The translations under genes and the position numbers were made by a program. DNA of 64,000 nucleotides from NCBI GenBank assembly GCA_017554105.1, contig JAFZIY010000016.1:1-64000 (forward strand), written 5' to 3'. This stretch comes from Prevotella sp. GTDB taxonomy: Bacteria; Bacteroidota; Bacteroidia; Bacteroidales; Bacteroidaceae. The notes beneath the pieces are model-generated. The model ran no database searches, had not been told where the DNA came from, and was given only the letters and a program-made list of their open reading frames with translations. Numbering within the stretch: position 1 is the stretch's first letter; every line of letters begins with the position of its first letter. Shown here in pieces: positions 8,662 through 44,216 of the stretch.

Positions 8662-8712
8662 TTTAACTCCTAACTCCTAATTTCTAACTCCTAACTCCTA
8701 ACTCCTAACTCT
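8662..8712. repeat. 7-bp tandem repeat (TAACTCC)n
   Basis: About six imperfect copies of TAACTCC lie between the methyltransferase and thyA. The repeat enters the 3' end of the methyltransferase gene and supplies its last codons (...LGVRS) and its TAG stop. Confidence 0.6.
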
Positions 8713-11248: not shown

Positions 11249-11791
11249 ATGGACAAACTGAGCGACATAACTCTGGTGTCACGGGTGGCTGTCTTCCATG
11301 ACAGGCGTGCTTTCGATGCGCTTGTAAGGAAGTATCAGTCACCCGTCAGGAGATTCTTCCTCTCACAGACACTTGGCGATAGTCAGCTCAGTGATGACCT
11401 GGCGCAAGACACCTTCATCAAGGCATACACTAAGATTTCTTCATTTCAGAGCAAGTCGTCATTCAAGACGTGGCTCTTCAGAATAGCATATAATGTGTTG
11501 TACGACTATCGTCGTGCGTATCACATCACCGATGAGATAGACGTTGTGACAGCAGCCAAGCCCGCTTCGGTGGAACACGATTCACAACTGAGTCTTGACA
11601 TATTCAATGCAATGAGTCAACTAAAGCCTACTGAGCGCTCATGCATTGCACTACAACTTATCGACGGCTATGCGATAGACCAGATAGCCGAGATTATGGA
11701 AATGGCGGAGGGTACGGTAAAGTCGCACCTCTCGCGCGGAAAGACAAAACTGGCAGATTACTTAAGACAGAATGGATATGGCAGACGATAA
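11249..11791 (+). CDS. ECF RNA polymerase sigma factor
   Basis: A 180-residue sigma-70 family factor. Region 2 (FDALVRKYQSPVRRFFLSQTLGDSQLSDDLAQDTFIKAYTKISSFQ and FKTWLFRIAYNVLYDYRR, residues 14-90) is followed by region 4 (SQLKPTERSCIALQLIDGYA and IAEIMEMAEGTVKSHLSRGKTKL). It directs transcription of an unknown regulon. Adjacent pspC (2 bp) and a DUF5056 membrane protein that overlaps it suggest a sensor-sigma-regulator operon. Confidence 0.93.
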   Translation: MDKLSDITLVSRVAVFHDRRAFDALVRKYQSPVRRFFLSQTLGDSQLSDDLAQDTFIKAYTKISSFQSKSSFKTWLFRIAYNVLYDYRRAYHITDEIDVVTAAKPASVEHDSQLSLDIFNAMSQLKPTERSCIALQLIDGYAIDQIAEIMEMAEGTVKSHLSRGKTKLADYLRQNGYGRR

Positions 11792-12154: not shown

Positions 12155-12170
12155 CCCTCCTTAAGGAGGG
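12155..12170. repeat. R2 GC-palindrome, perfect 16-mer
   Basis: CCCTCCTTAAGGAGGG is a perfect palindrome, 17 bp after the DUF5056 stop and ahead of the phased array at 12188. Confidence 0.65.
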
Positions 12171-12187: not shown

Positions 12188-12292
12188 TTACCAGCCGTTG
12201 GTAACATCCTTACCAGCCACTGGTAATCACCTTACCAGATACTGGTAACAGCACTACCAGCCGTTGGTAACAACTCTACCAGCCATTGGTAA
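12188..12292. repeat. Phased palindrome array P22-a: five dyads, exact 22-bp period
   Basis: Five 17-bp dyads of the form TTACCA-N5-TGGTAA start at 12188, 12210, 12232, 12254 and 12276, exactly 22 bp apart. The centres are GCCGT, GCCAC, GATAC, GCCGT and GCCAT. Units 4 and 5 begin CTACCA. The linkers between dyads (5 bp) are not conserved. The array lies between convergent genes. It is too short and too regular for CRISPR: the conserved part is the palindrome, and no room for spacers exists. Confidence 0.9.
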
Positions 12293-12309: not shown

Positions 12310-12873
12310 CTATCTTGGTTTGATGGAATTTAAGCCATTGATGCAATAAGGTAGTAGAATCTCCAGATAATACTTCTTCGCAGTCCCATCAGTAAACTGC
12401 GCATAGAATCCATCTTTTTTCTCAATAATCTTTGCATACTTCTCATATTCGTGAAGGGTTTTCCCTATTGGTTTTTGCTTTCCCAAGTAGTGAGTCCTAT
12501 CTTTTCTTAAAGGATACAGACAAATTAAATAAACCCTACTGCCCCAAATATAACTCGATAAAGTATCATGTTTCGGATTATGGGATATATGCTTCCTAAG
12601 CCAGATATGTGTAATAAAATCTGTCTCATCCGTTGGATATTGATTCAATACATCTTTGACATCATCCGTGTCAATTGGGTAATAGTAGTCCCTTGAAGTA
12701 TTATCAACCATAAAAATGGGAGTCTCATCCAATTCTGTAGGAGCAGTAAAAGAATGCTCTCTCTTAAAGATGTTGTCATGAAGTTTTAGCCTCATACGAC
12801 CTCCCATCTTATCGCCAAACCTGCGATTCTTTTTCCAGGCTGTTTGCTTATGTTTTTTGTTCTTGATACTCAT
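12310..12873 (-). CDS. Hypothetical protein, AT-rich
   Basis: A 187-residue protein with a very basic N-terminus (IKNKKHKQTAWKKNRRFGDK) and a soluble mixed body (THIWLRKHISHNPKHDTLSSYIWGSRVYLICLYPLRKDRTHYL). It has no signal peptide or membrane helix, and I recognise no family. Base composition is noticeably more AT-rich than the neighbours, which suggests accessory or recently acquired DNA. It is transcribed toward the P22-a array, whose last dyad ends 17 bp beyond the stop. Confidence 0.6.
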   Translation of the reverse strand: MSIKNKKHKQTAWKKNRRFGDKMGGRMRLKLHDNIFKREHSFTAPTELDETPIFMVDNTSRDYYYPIDTDDVKDVLNQYPTDETDFITHIWLRKHISHNPKHDTLSSYIWGSRVYLICLYPLRKDRTHYLGKQKPIGKTLHEYEKYAKIIEKKDGFYAQFTDGTAKKYYLEILLPYCINGLNSIKPR

Positions 12874-17690: not shown

Positions 17691-17832
17691 AGTTGACAAG
17701 TTAACGAGTTGACAAGTTCTTTCTCTGCTTCGCTATGAAAGCGCCCCTTTGGGTCGAGCGGACAAGTCAATTGTCACAAGTTTCGAAATCAAGCAACTCG
17801 TCAACTCGTCAACATGTCAACTCGTCAACTTA
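17691..17832. repeat. R3 GTTGAC inverted-repeat element, copy 1
   Basis: The left arm carries GTTGACAAGTTAACGAGTTGACAAGTT (given here in two parts, 17693-17707 and 17708-17719). The right arm is its inverted relative, with four CAACTCGTCAAC-type units (17795-17830). The arms can fold into a long hairpin. The inner end of the right arm (AAATCAAGCAACTCGTC) is the reverse complement of a sequence in copy 2 at 44138-44162. It fills the 5' leader of topB. Confidence 0.7.
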
Positions 17833-36013: not shown

Positions 36014-36114
36014 AAAGATGTCCTTTTGCCTCCTGAAAGGTGCCCTTTTACATCCCAAAAGATGTCCTTTCGTCACATGAAAGATGACCTTTTAAAACCT
36101 CAAAGATATGCTTT
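36014..36114. repeat. Phased palindrome array P22-b: five dyads, exact 22-bp period
   Basis: Five dyads AAAG-N5-CTTT start at 36014, 36036, 36058, 36080 and 36102, each exactly 22 bp after the previous one. The centres are ATGTC, GTGCC, ATGTC, ATGAC and ATATG. The 9-bp linkers vary. The array sits in the divergent MATE/subtilase intergenic region, 47 bp upstream of the subtilase -7 element. The same arm and centre consensus reappears at 55395-55470. Confidence 0.9.
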
Positions 36115-44108: not shown

Positions 44109-44216
44109 AGTTGACGAGTTGACGAGTTGACAAGTAAACGAGTTGACAAGTTGCTTGATTTGTTAATTGTACACATTAACATATAACTCGTCAACTTGTC
44201 AACTTGTCAACTTATA
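44109..44216. repeat. R3 GTTGAC inverted-repeat element, copy 2
   Basis: Left arm units GTTGACGAGTTGACGAGTTG (from 44112) and right arm CAACTTGTCAACTTGTCAAC (about 44194-44213) are inverted around an AT-rich loop. The inner part GTTGACAAGTTGCTTGATTT matches the reverse complement of copy 1 (17780-17810). It may serve as a terminator-like hairpin between the convergent DUF4332 and ddh genes. Confidence 0.65.

Follow-up and report, generated by a model that had tools for sequence, protein, structure and literature searches.

The P22-a array and its surroundings

The window, a stretch of 64,000 nucleotides, contains an ECF-type sigma factor gene (with Sigma70_r2 and Sigma70_r4_2 domains; 11,249-11,791, forward strand), followed by a gene encoding a DUF5056 protein (PF16479; 11,772-12,137, forward strand), whose stop codon lies 50 bp ahead of a tandem array of five dyads that we call P22-a (12,188-12,292, no strand assigned). 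Converging on the array from the other side is an open frame of 187 amino acids (12,310-12,873, reverse strand), which has no Pfam match, is absent from the calls of a codon-usage gene caller, and has its stop 17 bp past the array. Past the upstream stop codon and ahead of the array there is a 16-bp palindrome, CCCTCCTTAAGGAGGG (12,155-12,170, no strand assigned), possibly a terminator stem that is separate from the array. G+C-rich palindromes of the CCCTCC-TTAAGGAGGG type are found near several arrays (at 12,155-12,170 in the window, and to the left of the arrays at loci L021 and L015); they are possibly terminators or another repeat family. The window also holds short tandem repeats with units of 7 to 8 bp (TAACTCC, AGTTGACA, CAACTCGT, AGTTGACG, and AACTTGTC), located at 8,664-8,711, 17,691-17,718, 17,794-17,830, 44,109-44,153, and 44,185-44,213.

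The five units have the form TTACCA-N5-TGGTAA, with the centres GCCGT (unit 1, 12,188-12,204), GCCAC (unit 2, 12,210-12,226), GATAC (unit 3, 12,232-12,248), GCCGT (unit 4, 12,254-12,270; first arm CTACCA), and GCCAT (unit 5, 12,276-12,292; first arm CTACCA, and then CAAAA). A preliminary description of the window had reported dyads starting at 12,188, 12,210, 12,232, 12,254, and 12,276, and the start-to-start spacing is indeed 22 bp throughout; its conserved arms are perfect pairs in units 1 to 3, but units 4 and 5 carry one mismatch each. Allowing up to two mismatches, the window contains eight P22-a dyad matches, of which five are in phase; the expectation is 2.33, and no shuffle out of 100 gave more than seven. 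The linkers (CATCC, TCACC, CAGCA, and CAACT, in order) are also 5 nt long, so the array is better read as ten alternating half-sites with one every 11 bp. At the loci of this genome, neighbouring half-sites are most often 11 bp apart (counts of 77 and 82 for the two orientations, versus 8 to 9 at 10 and 12 bp), with further peaks at 22 and 33 bp. The centres and linkers, which had been described as variable and unconserved, do vary, but not at random: the segment TCACC-GATAC-CAGCA is found again at locus L009, and units at the same position of different arrays resemble one another more than units at other positions do (see below). Unlike CRISPR arrays, which have a long conserved repeat and unique spacers of similar length, this array has 6-nt arms, 5-nt gaps, and a dyad in every unit.

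Dispersal of the 22-bp geometry

We searched the genome to which the window belongs (3.12 Mb) for the paired P22-a geometry, and found it at 62 places with at most three mismatches, the backwards control giving none. At least 18 P22-a loci could be made out, the window included, and a chain search requiring six half-sites recovered 17 arrays at these loci, with 8 to 12 half-sites each. When 12 five-unit arrays from this genome were compared in one orientation, the variable positions agreed at 5.67 out of 10 between units of the same index and at 4.32 between units of different index, a difference reached in none of 2,000 shuffles; for example, unit 3 has the centre GATAC or GATAT in 10 of the 12. 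This resemblance by index indicates that the compared arrays are copies of one element. About ten of the copies have an extra 29-bp dyad at one end (TTACCA-N17-TGGTAA, its arms often lengthened by AAA/TTT), which the copy in the window lacks. Across the genus, TTACCA pairs are present in 41 of 398 genomes, and the control counts are 0. The search of the whole genome and of its relatives, as suggested in the preliminary description, turned up other 22-bp dyad arrays in abundance and so did not refute its proposal. The array of the window is absent from the corresponding loci in genomes G044 and G076; such an absence had been expected to count against the array if there were no sign of a mobile or regulatory role, but signs of mobility exist (see below).

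The window contains a second array of the same geometry, P22-b (36,014-36,114, no strand assigned), which consists of five AAAG-N5-CTTT units with the 22-bp period and 5-nt centre of P22-a and with unrelated arms, as had been described. P22-b pairs are found at 49 places in this genome (control 0), and triples of AAAG units in 119 of the 398 genus genomes, with up to 552 triple matches in one genome; the control count is equal or higher in seven of the 119 (among them G359, 301 versus 305, and G325, 1 versus 25), and some genus genomes show control matches only. The P22-b centres differ between species. Eight canonical 5-nt centres are common to P22-a and P22-b in this genome (of 15 and 14, respectively; e.g., ATGGC, GTATC, and GTGGC), a raw count that omits 10 of the 33 P22-b centre types, each seen once.

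A scan for dyad arrays with free arms and periods of 17 to 30 bp, in 491 kb of sequence (294 kb from this genome and 197 kb from others, much of it chosen for containing arrays), returned period 22 only, and no arrays were found in three block shuffles of the 294-kb part. An exact scan of named genomes gave at least 116 array stretches, and the titles of those listed name Prevotella, Segatella, Hoylesella, Bacteroides, Parabacteroides, Tannerellaceae, and one Flavobacterium. The recurrence of the 22-bp geometry with unrelated arms across the genus strongly supports the earlier proposal that it is the architecture, rather than the sequence, that recurs. We also observed a third arm family in G118 (TTCCCA/TGGGAA, at position 2,385 of locus L048), with a centre of 3 and a linker of 7 and still with a period of 22.

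Tandem duplication of a 22-bp unit followed by drift could in principle produce rows of this kind. The number of units does change in whole-unit steps, as seen at one locus where the array of G139 (L067) is longer than that of G325 (L066) by 44 bp, i.e., two whole units, just as plain minisatellites would do. Such minisatellites, whose linkage to the protein family described next would be a matter of chance, are a very improbable explanation, given one dominant period shared by many unrelated arms, and they are contradicted by the linkage of the arrays to one protein family and by the co-variation of the arms with it.

DUF6078 genes and their adjoining arrays

Clustering of the open frames within 1.5 kb of the arrays gave a single broadly recurrent family. 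It was found at 15 loci, a count that includes some places twice, and by tblastn, with overlapping copies merged, it adjoins arrays at 13 distinct loci. The family is PF19555 (DUF6078; E 2.6e-38), a family of unknown function. The genome of the window has a single DUF6078 copy (C24:128644-129078), which is followed by a cap and five dyads, and 239 of the 398 genus genomes have the gene. DUF6078 proteins are about 145 residues long, and among 96 aligned sequences three cysteines are conserved in 99% (Cys17, Cys22, and Cys28, in L223 numbering) and a fourth, Cys57, in 100%; further along there is a stretch rich in Tyr and Arg and a PEQQ-like motif. The four nearly invariant cysteines suggest a zinc site. 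Sequence searches gave no significant relative of solved structure (best E 0.088) and no significant match in NCBIfam, PADLOC, or PHROGs; no DNA-binding domain was recognised, and in the three proteins that were scanned PF19555 was the sole match above the cut-off, with no match to Y1_Tnp. In the literature that was searched, DUF6078 is not mentioned and no description of these 22-bp arrays was found.

In the reverse direction, starting from the gene, we scanned 60 DUF6078 loci and their flanks of at most 5 kb each (583 kb in all) for dyad arrays of any arm with periods of 15 to 35 bp, at a threshold of three units and 6-nt arms with at most four mismatches. The period is 22 in 39 of the 44 arrays found, the other five having periods of 21 (twice), 23, 30, and 34. 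At 27 of the 60 loci an array starts 0-300 bp past the end of the DUF6078 match (26 with period 22 and one with period 23); one other 3′ array starts at 300-600 bp and four further out, and on the 5′ side there are five arrays within 300 bp (at four loci), one at 300-600 bp, and six further away, so that 12 arrays in the 583 kb are more than 300 bp from the gene. The 420-bp flanks past the DUF6078 stop codon contain an array in 27 of 60 real cases and in none of 300 shuffled flanks. No locus has arrays on both sides within 300 bp, and at 33 of the 60 no array starts within 300 bp on the 3′ side at this threshold. Among the 30 best-scoring DUF6078 loci, only three have a 3′ array and five a 5′ array within 700 bp, all of period 22. 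Of six DUF6078 genes on records labelled as plasmid or phage, five have a 22-bp array directly 3′ (Bacteroides finegoldii, Parabacteroides distasonis, Treponema saccharophilum, and two of three faecal contigs). On the Parabacteroides distasonis plasmid record, a RhuM-family gene (PF13310; L373:1425-2468) lies directly upstream of the DUF6078 gene, which has an AGTACT array of period 22 on its 3′ side.

The arms found beside DUF6078 genes are diverse, including TTACCA, TGACCA, ATTCCC, TTCCAA, GTTTCA, TTACAA, TGAGAA, GCACAA, CGTACA, AGTACG, CGGACT, TGTCAC, AGTACT, and TTGCCA, and they follow the lineage of the protein. When arm classes assigned by hand were placed on a tree of 96 DUF6078 proteins (51 labelled rows, 18 classes), 18 changes were needed, as compared to a mean of 29.2 and a minimum of 26 for shuffled classes, and none of 500 shuffles was as low as 18. 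The result holds when the set is thinned to 44 rows (18 changes versus 22.8 shuffled, minimum 21) and for the 3′ arrays alone (12 versus 14.9, minimum 13); a two-state test of TTACCA against all other arms is weaker (8 changes versus 11.8, with 9 of 500 shuffles as low). TTACCA itself turns up in several unconnected clades, which could reflect reversion of arms to it or its presence in the ancestor.

The abundance of the dispersed repeats also goes with the gene. We counted TGACCA pairs in 41 genomes and found 12 in G199, 51 in G261, 34 in G231, four in G323 (at one locus), and none in the other 37. DUF6078 proteins of the TGACCA clade are found in exactly G199, G261, and G231; TGACCA arrays are therefore present in three of three genomes with a protein of this clade and in one of the 38 others, the exception being G323, which has its one TGACCA locus although its own DUF6078 gene carries another arm. 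The TGACCA-clade gene of G231 has no adjoining 22-bp array and instead has a row of TGGTCA dyads about 360 bp upstream (L303) with a period of 34, the 34 TGACCA pairs of this genome having a period of 22, so the 22-bp pitch is not absolute; given this upstream row, the G231 arm was not unknown before the TGACCA search. The association is weaker for TTACCA, with DUF6078 in 31 of 41 carriers versus 208 of 357 other genomes, and in 20 of 22 genomes with at least five P22-a pairs versus 219 of 376. The ten P22-a carriers that show no DUF6078 include G012 (11 pairs) and G340 (14 pairs), and many of the assemblies are incomplete.

P22-b is frequent in genomes that lack DUF6078 (e.g., G004, G010, G012, G055, and G062), so the 22-bp geometry does not require this family. 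The neighbours of 30 P22-b arrays included no pair of related frames, and those of 62 arrays only one pair, both in the genome of the window; no partner of P22-b was found in this set.

Position, signs of mobility and possible role of the arrays

We compared 35 pairs of related DUF6078 loci (at least 78% identical, over 1 kb on the 3′ side), and in 29 of them the similarity breaks off in the interval from -60 to +10 bp relative to the stop codon; in the remaining six it runs further, in three over 5 kb. Fast intergenic change may explain part of this loss, but it has no room as an explanation in G213, where a 2.3-kb unit is present twice between unrelated flanks (L293:3128-5423 and L294:3095-5423, 94.6% identical). 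This duplicated unit carries both array and gene: it starts with a CGGACT array, continues with a VapE-like ATPase gene (PF05272, E 4.5e-35), and closes with DUF6078, whose TAA stop codon is its exact end; no terminal repeat or target duplication was seen by eye at its ends. Between G042 and G003, the similarity begins 11 bp ahead of DUF6078 and extends about 117 bp past the gene, reaching into its array. The genome of the window has two genes that enclose an array without DUF6078; in G044, the space between their counterparts holds DUF6078 with its array, plus an additional frame.

We consider it probable that the array in the window is one of the dispersed copies of a repeat that is cognate to DUF6078 and bound by that protein as DNA, and that the two form a pair resembling REP and RAYT with an unrelated protein. 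On this proposal, DUF6078 genes, often carrying a row of 22-bp dyads, usually just past their own stop and with arms that go with the protein lineage, would encode a protein that binds DNA at the half-sites, which here read TTACCA, one per helical turn and on one face. The gene and its array would spread together as a selfish or mobile system, DUF6078 itself being the putative agent of the copying, and would leave arrays at the ends of genes, a behaviour also ascribed to RAYT transposases and their REP palindromes.

The location of the arrays can also be read in terms of selection on sites that do not move, that is, as operators or architectural sites kept in place, with DUF6078 acting as a regulator or roadblock (e.g., a sequence-specific transcription stop). 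Using gene calls from a simple codon-usage script, we examined 17 arrays of the genome of the window, and all 16 that could be placed lie in convergent or co-directional gaps and none in a divergent gap; all ten co-directional arrays are nearer the upstream stop codon, which speaks for this reading. The rule looks absolute in this genome and is weaker elsewhere: of 112 arrays of other genomes, the same script put 13 in divergent gaps, 22 in convergent and 54 in co-directional ones (37 of the latter closer to the 3′ end and 17 to the 5′ side), and left 23 unplaced, where divergent gaps make up 22% of the gap length. Selection on the arms is suggested by an orthologous gap shared with G044 (L007 and L074, 83% identical over 3 kb), in which four units align in register and the arms changed at 5 of 48 positions, as compared to 24 of 40 for centres and linkers (P = 9e-7); the centres look species-specific, so replacement from other copies could also yield this pattern. 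The preliminary suggestion of a repeat amplified and held by selection is accordingly borne out in part, by arrays that are copies of one element and by the conserved arms at this gap. Tandem operators and centromere-like iterons, such as those of MetJ, Arc, and plasmids, have phased half-sites on one helix face that are recognised by small oligomeric proteins, and they are few fixed sites per replicon; the 22-bp arrays differ from them in lying at many dispersed loci, with arms that change with the protein lineage. We regard fixed operators as rather unlikely, given the absence of the window array from the G044 locus and the origin of the units of this genome as copies of one element.

A role as RNA was considered as well, since the arrays are located after stop codons and each dyad could form a 6-bp hairpin; tandem hairpins in the 3′ UTR would then stabilise transcripts or bring about their termination, and their partner DUF6078 would bind RNA. 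In gene orientation, G.U and A.C mismatches number 42 versus 37 at DUF6078 genes and 26 versus 43 in the arrays of the genome of the window. Compensatory changes in these latter arrays are at expectation (4 versus 3.4, and 3 versus 2.5), and in other genomes they are raised alike in pairs across centres (21 versus 6.5) and across linkers (20 versus 5.1), which fits arm shifts affecting the whole array. The absence of both a G.U excess and a hairpin-specific compensatory signal makes DNA the likelier target; moreover, an 11-bp pitch is unneeded for a role as RNA, and the arrays have no Rfam match, so that we give the RNA explanation little credence. The exact 11-bp pitch of the half-sites and the lack of a G.U excess favour recognition as DNA. 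The preliminary description had expected a protein-binding array from the strict phase alone, and this expectation is now favoured by the pitch, the mismatches, and the existence of a partner protein family, the binding itself being putative.

The proposed DUF6078 pair has its closest counterpart in REP sequences, which are dispersed, species-specific extragenic palindromes with a cognate RAYT gene that has the repeat beside it, co-varies with it, and goes with its copy number (PMC2817692). Like REP sequences and BIMEs, the DUF6078 arrays are dispersed, extragenic, and adjoin a cognate gene; gene and repeat co-vary (the arm class follows the tree, with none of 500 shuffles matching it), and repeat abundance goes with the gene (three of three versus one of 38 for TGACCA, more weakly for TTACCA). 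Unlike RAYTs, DUF6078 has no match to the Y1 (HUH) tyrosine transposases in the three proteins scanned. A Y1 transposase of the RAYT kind was rejected as the partner, because Y1_Tnp was not found in the array carriers G012 and G017. The DUF6078 arrays also differ from REP sequences in comprising several dyads in strict 22-bp helical phase, and from the flanking of RAYT genes by inverted palindromes in being one-sided (within 300 bp, 27 of 60 loci 3′, 4 of 60 5′, and none both). In RAYT-REP pairs one foot of the palindrome bears a GTAG or CGTC tag (PMC3733652), whereas the base make-up of the array centres and linkers shows no fixed tetranucleotide. Another element to compare is BrickBuilt (MITE464) of Porphyromonas gingivalis, also in the Bacteroidota, which is intergenic, is present in 19 copies, and contains tandem repeats; these are direct, 23 or 41 nt long, and part of a MITE that has a leader, a tail, and IS5-like terminal repeats (PMC4596501). 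BrickBuilt resembles the 22-bp arrays in its host phylum, its intergenic location, and a tandem unit of similar length; the arrays differ from its 23-nt direct repeats in their period of 22 and in their dyad units, and the published account, in the part covered, gives no link to DUF6078 (PMC4596501).

More tentatively, DUF6078 could represent a new class of repeat-guided mobile system unrelated to the HUH transposases, in which a small cysteine-rich protein would use a helically phased array as its address, change its arm specificity quickly between lineages, and seed arrays at gene ends in Bacteroidota and Spirochaetota, with P22-b as a second system that obeys the 22-bp rule too and is served by another protein; we hold this wider view as a possibility, and a somewhat doubtful one.

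By tying DUF6078 to an abundant class of repeats, the finding offers a clue to what this family of unknown function does. Since many DUF6078 genes adjoin what appears to be their own recognition sequence, pairs of protein and site can be read from genomes, which makes a specificity code testable. If the reading of DUF6078 and its array as a cognate pair is true, it would be a REP-like system whose mover is no known transposase.
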